Below are positions 17,851 to 35,900 of a stretch of DNA of 64,000 nucleotides, piece after piece (position 1 is the stretch's first letter; every line of letters begins with the position of its first letter). Origin of the DNA: Vitis vinifera (taxonomy: Eukaryota > Streptophyta > Magnoliopsida > Vitales > Vitaceae); NCBI RefSeq assembly GCF_030704535.1, contig NC_081807.1, positions 2,893,001-2,957,000 on the forward strand, read 5' to 3'. The position numbers were made by a program, and so were the translations under genes. Below the pieces are notes generated by a model. The model was not told the DNA's origin. It saw nothing but the letters and a program-made list of their open reading frames with translations, and did no database searches.

Positions 17851-20800
17851 ATGGCGAGTTTGGTAGGGTCGCCGTGGATGAAGATTAGGGTGATTCCGGA
17901 GGTGGCTCCGCCGATTCTCCGCCGCTCGTCCTCTCTGTTCCGGAGGAGTTTTTCAGTGTCTTGTTCGACTGAAGCGCCTCCGAAGAAGCTCGAAGGGGAG
18001 GTTCGCGTTCGTTTCGCTCCTTCTCCCACTGGAAACCTCCATGTTGGTGGCGCGAGGACTGCCCTCTTCAATTACTTGTTCGCCAGGTCCAAAGGTGGGA
18101 AGTTTGTTCTTAGGATTGAAGATACTGACCTGGAGAGGTCTACTAAGCAATCAGAGGAAGCTCTGTTGCAGGATCTGTCCTGGCTCGGTCTCCACTGGGA
18201 TGAAGGTAATTCTCTTGATATGCATTTCAAAATCTTTAATTTCGCTCTGAATTTTTCTCCCCTTTTCTTGACATTATCATAAATTTGTCTGAATCTTATT
18301 CAGTGGCTAAGATTTAATCAACTGTTGATTTTCCACATTTCTAGTCCCAATTGGTCTCCTTTGAGTGGGATGTGATTGAATAAAGGGGCACGAGGTACCC
18401 ATGAAATAATGCTGATGATTTCCTTATTTGATGAATTTGCTTGCAGGTCCTGGTGTTGGTGGAGACTATGGTCCTTATAGGCAGTCTGAAAGGAATTCTT
18501 TGTACAAGCAATATGCAGAGAAGCTTTTAGAATCTGGTCATGTTTATCAGTGTTTCTGTTCGAATGAGGTAAATATGTTCAAACTTTAGAACTCATTCTT
18601 TTAGTAACTCTTAACCGACCTGAATTACAAGGAGAGCTGAGCGTTTAATCATCCTGAGGTGTAAACTGAACAAAAATTCTTATGATTTCTGAATTCAAAG
18701 TTTGTTGCTTAGAGTTAGCTTAAGGAGATGTCCCTAAACTTGGAACTAAAAACTTCTAGCTTTTGGTAGATGAGTACCTGTAGTTGTAGTTTAGTGTTCT
18801 TTTATAGTGCTATTTGTGTTGCTATCTCTGTTTGTATTCGGATTTGTAGGGTATTGGAGTTTATATCCATATCATGGTATACCAATTAACCTATATGATG
18901 ACATACTGTTATGCCACGGATGGACATGGTGGGAGCATGGTGTCTTGCCTATGAAACATAGTCTTGCATTCTTGGATAATGAACTTGTTTCAAGGGTGAT
19001 CCCACCTTGTGGACCGTGTGATCACTGTGAACCTTGTTATTTGGTTCGGGGTTTGCCCATCTTTTGCCTTGACCACAATTGCTCATCTACTCAATTATTT
19101 GATTTTATGATTACTCTTTTCACAGTTCATTAATTCTATCTTCTCTTTTTATTTTTTGTTTTAGTTCTTTTTCTTTAATCTTATTTCACTTGCATTGGTG
19201 TGGATATGCCTTGTATTTAAGAATGCCTATGTTATAATCCTTTCCAGGAATTAGAAAAGATGAAGGAGATTGCAAAGCTAAAGCAACTGCCTCCAGTATA
19301 CACAGGAAAGTGGGCCAGTGCGACAGCTGAAGAAGTACAAGAAGAGCTAGAAAGGGGAACTCCTTATACATACAGATTTCGTGTGCCAAAAGAGGGAAGT
19401 TTGAAAATTGATGACCTTATCCGTGGCGAAGTAAGTAAGTTCTGTTCTTGTTTTTTTTTTCTTTTTTTTTTTGTTGCATGAGGTCTTGTGCAACTAACAA
19501 CATTTTACTTTTAATAGTAAGTTTTTGCATCCTCAGTGATAAGGTTGTTAATTGGTCTGTCTGTGACTGTTGTTGAGAATTTGTGGCTGTTTTTGTTGTG
19601 ATTTATGTGAAACTGAATGCTAGGATTCGACTAAAAGATCATTTAGCCTATGTTGCTTGGGGGACATGTGATGAAAATCTCATTTGCTGATATTAGATGT
19701 ATTCTGCTCCCTTTACTTCACCTACTCTAAGAACTTGAAAACCTCTTTTATTATTATTATTATTATCATGTTTTCATAATCCCAAAGGATGCCTTACAAG
19801 ATTTTATGGCAAGTTATATTCATGAAATACATGGCCTGAAAGCATAATGACTTGGGGCATTGTTCTATGGTGCTACTGATGTTTATTTGATCTTTTTGAG
19901 GGATTGTGGGGAATAGAATGGGATGAGTGTGTCATAGGCATGTATCTTCCTTCTCTGGGAACTGTATTTAAGAGATCTGGTGTTTATCATTAGTAACCAG
20001 TCACCAACTGAAAACAAATCATCCATTACAAGTGTATCCTCTTTTCACATCTAACTATTCTTAATTTGTAAAGGCTGTTGATTTTATTTGATAGTGTCAT
20101 GAAGGTTAGATGGAACTTGGATACACTTGGAGATTTTGTGATCATGAGGAGTAACGGACAACCAGTTTACAATTTTTGTGTCACAGTTGATGATGCCACC
20201 ATGGCTATTTCTCATGTTATTAGGTAAGCGTTTACTCTCTTCAATATGTGTGGGAATTTCCTGTTTGTCAGTCCAGATATCCTACCAATCTACTCCTTTA
20301 ATATATTTGTGCTCACTTATAAAAAAAAAAAGATATCCTACCAATCTACTACCATTCTTTTTTTTTTTTTTTTTTTTTTCTTTTTCTTTTTAATTGTAGC
20401 TCATGATCTGTATCATGTCATTTTTATCTATTTAACACTTAATTTCAGAGCAGAAGAACATTTACCAAACACTCTCAGGCAAGCATTGTTGTATAAGGTA
20501 ACTTTTGCCATAACTTGCATTTTTTGATCACTCACCACATGCTCATTATGGGCACACGGCTTTCATGTTCTCTAAATTCCTGAACTTTGCACATGCTTAT
20601 CCTGGAGTTTATATATGTTGTTTAATCACAGGCTCTTGGATTTGCCATGCCTTCGTTTGCACATGTTTCCCTAATCCTTGCACCTGATCGGAGTAAACTA
20701 TCAAAACGACATGGTGCAACTTCAGTGGGTCAGGTAGTTAATGATTGTTATATTCTGTTTGTTTCGTTGGTAAAAATTGGGGTAAAAATTTTCGTTTCTT

Positions 20801-32900: not shown

Positions 32901-35900
32901 ATGCAACCCTTTCTAATTTGTGTAGGGGTAAAACCCTTAGCCAGATGACTTTTGTAATGATTTGCTCTCAATCATGGGCATATTGTCCGCTCTGGGTTCA
33001 ATGGAGCCCTCACGAATTTAAAATACGTCTACACAATTAAGAAGAGGTCATATTTATATAGAGCCAAAAACTTTTTCCTTTTCTAGTGTGGTATATCACA
33101 ATTACACCTTTATATAGACACAACGTCTTCATTGTGTTCCACATGATTGTGAGGTCAAACAGATAGACACCCTTTGTTGGGCCAAACAAACTCCCATATC
33201 GAGGTCAGGAATTGACTTTAATACTATTTGTAATGACCCATTCCCAACTATGTAGATATTGTTTGCTTTGAGCTCAATGAACTTTCAAAACTTTAAGAAG
33301 CATCTACACGGTTAAGAGGAACTCATACATATATAATGCTAGGAGCTTTTTCCTCTATTTGATGTGACTTTTCCCTGGCTTTTTGGCAATTTTGTTGGTA
33401 TTTTATGAAAAAGTGAAGGGATGGGGTGTTTTGGGGAGTTCTATGAGCTTGAGTCTTTTGAAAGAAGCGTAAACACCAATTTCATTGTGCTAATATCAAA
33501 GAAGGGAAGTGCAAAAGATTTAAAAGACTTCTTAGTGGGGGGACCATACAAGCTCTTAGCATAAATCTTGCCTAATTGACTAAAAAAAAGTGGTGGTAAA
33601 AGTGGATTCAACTTTTTAACATGCATTTGTGGAGGGTCATCAAATTTTGGATGTGGTTTTTATAATAAATGAAGCCTTTGACTCGAAGTTAAAGAGGTCT
33701 ACTAATGGGGTCATTTGTAGGCTAGATAATGAGACAACATATGATCATGTCAGTTGTATTTTTGTTTTTTTTTTGTTGTTTATTTATTTAATGGTGGTTT
33801 TGGAAAAACTAGGATTTGGTTTCCAAGTAGATTAGATTGATTATGTGGTGCATTTCTCTGACTTACTTCTATTTCTTGGTTAATGGGACTCCATTCATTA
33901 TGTCCAAAGTTTTAAGGGTTTGAGACAAGGTGACCCTCTTTCCCCATACCTATGTATCTTGACTATGGAGATGCTCTCTAATATTTTTAATAGGCAAAAG
34001 AAGGGGGCTTCATCTTGGGTTATGTGGTCTGTGGAGGACGAGATGTGGGAATGAAGGTGTCCCATCCGCTGTTTTGTTAAGGATATTTTTGTCCTTTGTG
34101 ACTCTAATCAGTATCAATTGGAGCATTTAAGCTGCTCTTTCATATGGTTTGAGGCTATAATGAGTTTAAAAATCAATTTGGAGAAAAGTTTGCCTATCGA
34201 AAAAAGAAAAAAAGAAAAAAATCAATTTGGAGAAAAGTTAATTGATCCTAGTTGGTAGGACAGGAAAGGTGGATGACCTAGCTATTTTTTTGGGTTGTCA
34301 GGTGGGTACCTTCCATCTATTTATTTGGGCCTACTGTTGGGAGCAACATTTAGATTATCACAGGTTTGGAATGTGGTGAAAGAAAGATTTCATAAAAAAC
34401 TTGCTTTTTGGAAGAGACAATACTTATCAAAAGGAGGAAAAGCTAACTCTGATAAAAAGTACTCTATTGAAGATCTCAATATACTTCATTCCCTTATTTA
34501 TTATTCCTAAAAAGGTGAACCTAAGACTAAACGATACAAAGGGATTTTCTTTTTATTTGAGTAGCATGAAAGATTTGTTTGGAAAAATAGCTGAAAAGTT
34601 TGGAGAACAGCTCCCTTTTTCTTTTTTTGATAGTTAAGGGAATGTATATTAAATTAAAAAAAGCAGCCAAGCAAACAGCTCCCTTTTTCTTGTTTTGGAC
34701 AAAATGGAAGGAGAGGTATCAAAGGATCTTTGAAGAGTTAGAGAATGGGTCAAGCCTGAAAGAGTTTTTTTTTCTTTCTTTTTTTGTTCCTTTTTCTTCT
34801 GGTCTAAGTAGTCTGTGGATGAGGAACTTATTCTTTGGTGGGTTTCATAGATTGTTTGAATCCTTTCTAAGATCTTCGTGGTGGTTTTTCAAGCCCTGAT
34901 GGGCACTAGTGATACACCTCTGGTGTACATGGGTTGCATCCCTTTATCACTTAACCAAAAATAAAAATAAAAATAACAAAACACCATTTTTTTTTTGCTT
35001 TTTAAAGTAGACTGTAGACTTTTAGCAATCAGGCTATATCAGTGCGTTCAAGAGCATCTGATGGCTGTCCATTTCTTAGATAATATATATTTACATGGAA
35101 ATTTTCTATTTTGCATTTGCTAGTGGATCTTCTCTATTTATACATAGCATAGGATTCTCTTTTGTGCCTCTCTCTGGTATCTTAAATGCATAATTTGTTA
35201 TTTTTGACCATTTTCATTGTCATTTCTTTTTCGCATTTTGTTTAATAACATGTATTAAAACCCTTTTAATTCCATCAGATATTTGCAGGACTGTCAATGG
35301 CCTTCTGAAAACGGCACTAGGTCCACCTCCTGGTTCTACTACAACCTTGTCTCCCATCCAAGATTTGACATTTCGGCTTGAATCAGTGAAGTGCTTGGTT
35401 AGCATTATTAAGTCAATGGGAGCTTGGATGGATCAACAGCTAATAATAGGAGATTTCTCTCCACCGAAGAGCTCTGAGAGTGAGATTTCAACAGAGAATC
35501 ATGCAATCATCAATGGAGAAGAAGGAACTATCCCTGACTATGAGCTGCATCCAGAAACAAATTCAGGATTATCAGATGCTGCTGCCTTTGAGCAACGTCG
35601 AGCTTATAAACTAGAATTCCAGGTTGATTATTGCTTTACTTGTAGAGATATACCTTGATCATTAACTACAGCTATAATGCACTTTGGTTTTTATGTGCTC
35701 ATTGAACACTTATCCTGTGCTATTTCATTTTTTGCTTTAACTTTAAGTCACACTATGTTTCATTTTTTCCTGGAATTTACCTGGTTCATTATGTAGTGAC
35801 CGGTTTTCTGGGTTAAATGCAGAAAGGCATCTCACTGTTCAATAGGAAACCTTCCAAGGGCATAGAATTTCTAATAAGCTCCAAGAAAATCGGTGGTTCT

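Follow-up and report, generated by a model that had tools for sequence, protein, structure and literature searches.

The closest described counterparts of the inserts reported here are the 5'-truncated LINEs of the L1 clade (human L1 and plant LINEs), with which they have TSDs, a poly(A) tail, a retained 3' end and the loss of 5' sequence in common. LINEs are, as a rule, truncated at the 5' end; in contrast to such truncations, the grapevine bodies lie near the lower limit, at 7 nt, and show a preferred stop. LINE/SINE pairs with stringent 3'-end recognition are also comparable, as a terminal motif is common to LINE families and a SINE here too, with a possible stem-loop nearby, but in grapevine the shared part amounts to only some 10 terminal nt, which is no proof of recognition. 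In the available part of the review by Ohshima (PMC3747384), no more than three SINE/LINE pairs are recorded for flowering plants, and a relaxation of recognition is proposed for some plant L1 lineages (ME2/ME3). For R2 and R1, which are site-specific rDNA elements, the join was proposed to proceed by truncation, then annealing of the top strand to the cDNA with microhomology, much like the join considered here, and the available text mentions no 7-nt class (PMC2718515). Grapevine LINE insertions enlarge introns and vary between varieties, while the portion of that study available makes no mention of ultrashort inserts (PMC3058033). No description of an ultrashort LINE class was recognised in the literature searched, most subscription papers lying outside its reach.

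In the 64-kb grapevine window, i.e., the whole stretch of DNA analysed, the first-pass annotation had placed seven candidates in introns of two genes, five of them with exact duplications of 17-20 bp and six with a shared end motif. All seven indeed have exon-like stretches of two genes on either side, and five are well-supported insertions with exact TSDs, albeit over a range of 17-23 bp. The shortest insert (25624..25669, minus strand; exact 17-bp TSD at 25624-25640 and 25653-25669) occupies 25641-25652 and consists of the 7-nt body GCCTATC followed by AAAAC; its tail is too short for the scan of runs of at least seven A's described below, and no empty site was found for it among paralogous LINE copies. 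Three others interrupt older LINE copies. The first of these (28668..28735, minus strand; exact 20-bp TSD at 28668-28687 and 28716-28735) carries at 28688-28715 a 19-nt body ending in GCCTATC and then A9, and scored 40.1 bits in the motif-free scan. At 34168..34239 (plus strand; exact 23-bp TSD at 34168-34190 and 34217-34239), the insert 34191-34216 has an 8-nt body, TGCCTATC, and a G/A-rich tail (sense end GCCTATC-G-A-rich; 41.3 bits), and its TSD exceeds the claimed length because A's are shared with the tail. The insert 34624-34673 (34606..34691, minus strand; exact 18-bp TSD at 34606-34623 and 34674-34691; 35.1 bits) comprises a 45-nt LINE-like body ending in AACTATC, then A5.

The fifth exact case, near exons of a glutamyl-tRNA-synthetase-like gene (20275..20350, plus strand; 20-bp TSD at 20275-20294 and 20331-20350), contains at 20295-20330 a 26-nt LINE-like body ending in CACTTAT, then A10. 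It scored 38.3 bits in the motif-free scan (as window+20321; null 99.9% = 20.5), and is an ordinary short copy with a different end, outside the CTATC class. The remaining two are imperfect or short, as had been stated, and are weaker cases, unproven singly. The candidate at 26501..26581 (plus strand) has an imperfect flanking repeat, exact over 8 nt only, around a body of about 8 nt (TACCTATC) from 26518 with an A-rich tail (sense end ACCTATC); it fell below the threshold of the motif-free scan, and is probably an old ultrashort insertion. The other, at 28106..28161 (minus strand; 10-bp exact TSD), has the insert 28116-28151, CTCTTTACCTATAGG followed by an A-rich tail, with the sense end ACCTATAGG-A-rich; having no run of seven A's it lay outside that scan, and it is possibly a short insertion. 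The count of six shared ends holds if this variant is allowed.

Uninterrupted empty sites with a single copy of the TSD were found in paralogous LINE copies (59-73% identity) for 28688, 34191 and 34624, supporting their insertion origin. For 28688 they include L050 (73%), L022 (73%) and L012 (62%), among others, and for 34624 L046 (72%), L012, L022, L015 and others. Those for 34191 (61-63% identity) are found in L012, L011 and L026 as well as within the window itself, in the minus-strand LINE at 32117-31729, which is part of an ORF2 copy with long open stretches (30588..32741, minus strand) that matches the Pfam domains RVT_1 (6.8e-37; 31668-32741) and zf-RVT (6.2e-21; 30588-31664).

We then compared a 264-kb set, made up of 20 loci of 10 kb and the window, with shuffled sequence, a comparison set as a test beforehand. 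Fifty-one pairs of exact repeats of at least 13 nt, at most 120 nt apart and enclosing an insert of at least 6 nt, were present, compared with two altogether, neither with a tail, in five Markov shuffles, which bears out the expected excess. The tail stood on the expected side in 21 of the 51 pairs and on the control side in seven, one pair being counted both ways, and the 21 include several that, as AT-rich repeats or long inserts, do not belong to the ultrashort class. A motif-free scan of 518 A-runs of at least seven gave 29 matches above the 99.5% flank-swap threshold versus 2.6 expected, a total in which one window site appears twice and a single AT-rich repeat in L014 supplies four rows; the window sites among them are 20295, 28688, 34191 and 34624. 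With the L014 rows and the double count removed, bodies measured 5-11 nt in 12 of 24 rows, and thus the ultrashort class is recovered without any motif requirement.

Genome-wide, CCTATC-A8 occurs 1,999 times in 495.6 Mb, versus 52 for the reversed and 43 for the permuted pattern. The excess is 8.6-fold for CTATC-A10 (2,109 versus 246 reversed) and a mere 2.5-fold for RCCTATC-A6 (598 versus 235). Several diverged LINE families, and a tRNA-like SINE as well, terminate in CCTATC-A(n), so that the proposed LINE origin stands as far as the end is that of LINE copies, but not as one lineage, and a 7-nt body by itself cannot name a LINE family. Upstream of the motif, the GTTTCCTATC family includes RVT_1 (2.7e-31) and a weak sub-cutoff endonuclease match in L026, while L028 carries zf-RVT. 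Of the loci with TTTRCCTATC ends, L012, L018 and L050 align with the window's LINE copies as far as the motif (in L012 at 3528-3919 and 4659-4959, with the motif at 4994). TT precedes R in 30/30 LINE 3' ends, picked by eye from 46 classed as LINE by rule, with 16 omitted. R is preceded by a base other than T at 192 sites genome-wide versus 14 for the reversed pattern; seven of eight such sites held a short insert with a TSD and the eighth an 8-nt TSD at body 7, and such a base is diagnostic of a short insert. The consensus energy of the 3' hairpin is weak (-0.84 kcal/mol), with a double change in two of five pairs.

TSDs were tested at the 100 CCTATC-A8 sites listed among the 1,999 (L001-L008, contained in later loci, were omitted, while L054 and L069, nearly identical in tails and flanks, were both retained). 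Compared with 2,000 flank swaps, 24 sites were significant at p<=0.002 (0.5 expected at p<=0.005), with TSDs of 10-25 nt enclosing bodies of at most 56 nt; most of the listed sites have p 0.0005 and not 0 because the top score among the swaps was 37.6. An earlier run limited to 63 of these sites, with 12 at p<=0.01, was superseded by this one. The TSD began with A in 18 of the 24, but this A is shared with the tail, and the preceding base (C 11, T 7, A 4, G 2) revealed no clear preference for a TT/AAAA endonuclease target at these sites. Among the 51 sites that remained, a search for longer TSDs, weak past a few hundred nt, added 12 at p<=0.02; longer bodies, of 121, 141, 141, 156, 179, 272 and 517 nt, were seen in that search. 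For the relaxed CTATC motif the test was unusable, because the presence of related sites raised the flank-swap null (to 72 bits at 99.5%), and sites were read by eye instead; L022- 8741, with the body GCCTATC, is known from that reading only. Seven control motifs yielded 1, 1, 1, 1, 0, 0 and 2 matches (about 0.1 each expected), the two being for CCTAT and belonging to the ultrashort class.

Bodies of at most 11 nt account for 16 of the 24 significant sites, and thus for 16 of 100 tails, in agreement with the claim that a near-immediate stop is frequent. Beyond that reading, there is a preferred, near-minimal stop at 7 nt: nine of the 24 bodies, mostly RCCTATC, have exactly this length, whereas 6, 8 and 9 nt occur once each (p 8e-5 under a fitted geometric to 1e-8 under a uniform distribution, the spike having been noticed first and tested afterwards). 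A position-anchored test likewise peaked at 7, with nine strong sites; 27/100 sites passed versus 16/400 swaps (about 4 expected), the swapped flanks being slightly piled at 7 too (5/400), and one of the 11 anchored sites at 7, L025, having a better TSD at 121 nt. Among 20 NCTATC sites, a subset of about 37 newly listed places, bodies were 7, 7, 7, 9 and 10 nt plus four of 47-62 nt. Forty RCCTATC-A6 sites, a subset of 100 listed places in which the related pairs L145/L148 and L146/L147 were all retained, gave 6, 6, 7, 8 and 22 nt, i.e., exactly 7 nt in 1/40; the two at 6 end in A, one of them with a related copy. Within these two further samples, L106 is the same site as L019- 4731 of the motif-free scan. 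Since the CCTATC pattern hardly detects bodies below 6 nt, the lower limit rests on the motif-free scan of 264 kb, where almost nothing shorter was found: bodies below 5 nt are confined to two weak rows, at 0 and 2.

We consider it probable that these inserts stem from LINE target-primed reverse transcription that broke off nearly as soon as it had begun, halted at a U-tract and was closed onto the target. The nicked target strand would prime on the poly(A) of a LINE or SINE RNA ending in ...UUU(A/G)CCUAUC-A(n), and the enzyme would copy the tail and the terminal RCCUAUC. A halt may then occur at the adjacent upstream U-tract, perhaps owing to the weakness of the rU:dA hybrid there and/or to the boundary of a 3' element that the enzyme recognises, and a top strand nicked early would close onto the minimal cDNA, possibly through microhomology and frequently with T at the join, leaving TSD - ~7 nt - A(n) - TSD. 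T is found at the junction in 10/15 cases at body 7 (p 0.008) and in 7/13 with longer bodies; being nearly as frequent there, it may reflect a nicking preference. More tentatively, the discrete, abundant class, which may number some 10^4 copies, might record a built-in checkpoint of plant LINE TPRT, in which a terminal 7-nt recognition element is copied and a pause at the U-tract is followed by elongation or closure, the inserts being footprints of the initiation-to-elongation transition.

Ordinary 5' truncation alone might account for the ultrashort copies as the lower tail of a smoothly graded range of lengths, and bodies of 14-56 nt and 121-517 nt are indeed present as well; the spike at 7 nt and its recurrence in the NCTATC sample (3/20) speak against smoothness, and we regard this explanation as unlikely. 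Another alternative is a broken template: LINE or SINE RNA cleaved at U/R would leave RCCUAUC-A(n) fragments copied to their 5' end. The main junction falls exactly between U and R, and run-off on such a fragment would give the same product, but most other short bodies begin without a purine, so that cleavage at U/R is not general, and we find this quite unlikely.

Later deletion, by which the inserts would be what is left of longer LINE or SINE copies after loss of their 5' sequence, fits the substitutions in several TSDs, which indicate that some copies are old; yet deletion would neither leave an exact TSD beside the body at independent sites nor stop at one position, making it very improbable. 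Slippage or end-joining filler, yielding tandem duplications with an A-rich spacer, finds some accord in the A/T-rich flanks at some sites, but the spacer is a LINE 3' end, TSD lengths are LINE-like, the tail prefers the LINE-sense side, and paralogues carry a single uninterrupted copy. This barely credible reading is largely refuted by the motif excess, the tail side and the paralogous empty sites.

Under abortive target-primed reverse transcription, 7-nt bodies would be too short for homology-based masking, and as inserts with bodies of about 7 nt probably escape repeat annotation, the number of attempted LINE integrations would be underestimated. For some short direct repeats separated by A-rich spacers, and for some intron length differences of 30-70 bp, this would be a cause so far overlooked. 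Because the spike sits at one fixed position of the template, the earliest LINE integration step would also become testable from genome sequence, namely the point at which the second strand takes over and the feature of the RNA 3' end that the enzyme recognises. Bodies of 5-11 nt are too short to hold the A and B boxes of an internal pol III promoter, and SINE-like copies of about 100 nt are distinct from the ultrashort inserts.

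Across the 495.6-Mb grapevine genome (21 contigs), CCTATCAAAAAAAA occurs 976 and 1,023 times on the two strands, compared with 27 and 25 for the reversed pattern and 16 and 27 for the permuted control CCATTCAAAAAAAA, while the fuller LINE end TTTRCCTATCAAAAAAAA was counted 929 times against 0 reversed. Enrichment is lower for the looser patterns CTATC-A10 (2,109 versus 246 reversed) and RCCTATC-A6-not-A (598 versus 235). Five GCCTATCAAAAAAC sites lie at an exact 339-base spacing on contig C1 (3448702-3450071), in a tandem array that may hold a LINE end, and four CACCTATC-A8 sites 103-108 kb apart on C5 (1976517-2295162) possibly mark a large segmental repeat.

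The one hundred CCTATCAAAAAAAA matches listed (96 on C1, 4 on C2), out of 1,999, were each compared with 2,000 flank swaps. At 24 of them a significant target-site duplication (TSD) accompanied a short body, the LINE-like part between the 5' TSD copy and the A tail, measuring 1, 6, 7 (nine sites), 8, 9, 11 (three sites), 14, 16, 22, 26, 28, 34, 37 or 56 nt, which bears out the proposal of the first-pass annotation that integration often stops almost at once. These sites look independent, since no 14-mer is common to their flanks. The 1-nt body belongs to locus L043, whose own TSD extends into GCCTAT, so that it can equally be described as a 7-nt body with a 6-nt microhomology join; gapped matching shifts the body from 16 to 6 nt at L097 and from 11 to 8 nt at L011. 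Length tests made after the spike had been noticed gave p values of 1e-8 (uniform), 4e-6 (1/x) and 8e-5 (fitted geometric) for nine bodies of exactly 7 nt. A position-anchored test placed body 7 at 11 sites, of which L025 and L033 are near threshold, with a small excess at body 7 for swapped flanks too (5/400). For the exact-motif class, the 16/100 with bodies of at most 11 nt scale to ~320 copies.

The 76 sites without a short TSD insert were sorted by rule into 46 LINE-like, 13 GTTTCCTATC, 7 SINE-like and 10 other. T precedes the purine in all 30 LINE ends aligned (a by-eye choice out of the 46), where TT is invariant at positions that the search pattern left free. A non-T base before RCCTATC is diagnostic of short inserts: seven of the eight sampled sites with such a base carry a short insert and TSD (bodies 1, 6, 7, 7, 7, 11 and 22), and the eighth, L033, has an 8-nt TSD at body 7. 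VRCCTATC-A8 was found 192 times genome-wide against 14 reversed, and the non-T share is concordant (192/1,999 genome-wide, 8/100 sampled).

In a sample of 20 sites where CTATC follows a different base, nine reached p<=0.01, with bodies of 7, 7, 7, 9, 10, 47, 54, 57 and 62 nt, the 7-nt ones being GTCTATC (twice) and ATCTATC (once); the 47-nt case, L120, is doubtful because its A tail falls within the right TSD copy. Five of 40 RCCTATC-A6 sites on C2 and C3 passed (bodies 6, 6, 7, 8 and 22), which supports ultrashort bodies and, weakly, their exact position; both 6-nt bodies may be 7 nt long, as their TSDs end in A. A motif-free scan of 264 kb tested 518 A-runs of at least 7 for a TSD, and 29 passed versus 2.6 expected. 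After four AT-rich-repeat rows from L014 and one double count were left out, 12 of the 24 kept rows had bodies of 5-11 nt (34191 taken as 8, its G-broken tail not counted). Most of the twelve end in motif relatives (CCTAT twice, GTTATC, ACCCAT, CCAATC, ACCTATC twice, ATCTATC, ACTATCC, GCTTATC and GCCTATC), and one, ATGCCG, does not. Only two rows, both weak, fell below 5 nt (bodies 0 and 2), so the lower bound of ~5-7 nt is not an artefact of searching with CCTATC. Eight unanchored events of 5-11 nt in 200 kb of fetched loci amount to 40 per Mb (95% 17-79), naively 8,600-39,000 events per genome, an order of magnitude only because the loci were picked near LINE ends on one chromosome.

In the window (C3, 2893001-2957000), exact flanking repeats occur at five of the seven candidates, the number reported in the first-pass annotation, at lengths of 17-23 bp rather than 17-20 bp. 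The inserts at 28116 (10-bp repeat) and 26518 (imperfect repeat) are not, each taken alone, established insertions. One host gene resembles glutamyl-tRNA synthetase, with weak Pfam matches below cutoff, and the other a BIG/Sec7-type ARF-GEF with matched DCB, HUS and Sec7 domains. Three candidates (28688, 34191 and 34624) sit in older LINE copies, so that LINE paralogues could serve as empty sites when the flanks were joined without the insert and aligned to other copies. For all three, several LINE copies at 59-73% identity cross the junction with one TSD copy and no insert; most alignments shown are ungapped at the junction, with gaps of 1-3 nt nearby in some. The clearest case is 34191, whose insert consists of an 8-nt body and a tail and for which four separate copies are empty; its matches include the window's own LINE (32117-31729, minus strand). 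These paralogous empty sites show that the three inserts arose by insertion, not duplication. Within 28735-28900, the host LINE of 28688 terminates in CACTTACAAG-A(n), not CTATC, yet aligns to L050, whose end is ACCTATC.

By their features the ultrashort inserts are 5'-truncated LINE insertions, the difference here being a preferred, near-minimal length: insertion, TSD, tail and LINE 3' end are evident, as are the preference for 7-nt bodies and the near-absence of shorter ones. Reverse transcription probably copies the tail and then RCCUAUC before halting at the U-tract, and the early-nicked top strand would seal the gap; early top-strand nicking has been reported for human L1 (PMC7617806). 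The main mechanistic rival is that the template was broken RNA. Of 15 events with a 7-nt body, including one read by eye, 10 have T at the TSD end (p 0.008); the T is not specific to body 7, since it also stands there in 7 of 13 events with longer bodies. Under halting at the U-tract, this terminal T would pair with the A's copied from it, an annealing of the kind proposed for R2 (PMC2718515). No description of such an ultrashort class was recognised in the literature searched, most subscription papers lying outside its reach.

LINE proteins are encoded upstream of the motif in the parent elements: a reverse transcriptase (RVT_1, 2.7e-31) lies in L026, together with a stretch that weakly resembles an endonuclease, and a zf-RVT end in L028. 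Both belong to a reverse transcriptase-encoding family that ends in GTTTCCTATC and contains a GGAGGATTCCTCATCC-like stretch, with members at L026 (5.0-8.9 kb, minus strand), L028, L038, L041 and others; the family accounts for 13 of the 76 long tails. Among the significant sites of the 100-, 20- and 40-site samples, none had an insert whose body is TCCTATC. LINEs ending in TTTRCCTATC are tied to the window LINEs by homology, L012 aligning at 3528-3919 and 4659-4959 (motif at 4994), and the alignments of L018 and L050 to window copies likewise reach their motifs. The CCTATC-A(n) end is also that of a ~100-nt tRNA-like SINE with a B-box-like GGTTCAAGTCCC (L014 near 5007, minus strand; L039, L062, L064, L075, L085 and L088; pol III boxes judged by eye), which spans 93, 100 and 102 nt between TSDs in three copies and is a candidate partner in a SINE/LINE pair. 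Hence the LINE 3' end that had been suggested holds, and its attribution to one lineage does not, as several LINE families and a SINE have it. Such sharing, though no proof, may reflect 3' recognition persisting in this plant; according to a review of plant L1 elements, one monocot lineage has a conserved 3' end, and three SINE/LINE pairs are described from flowering plants (PMC3747384). In aligned LINE 3' ends, diverged families have in common a putative GTATAC-loop-GTATAC stem upstream of the tail, with double changes in two of five pairs and a weak consensus energy. At L030 (600-715), a tandem pair of ~50-nt LINE 3' end copies, with A5 after the first, resembles a template-jump dimer.
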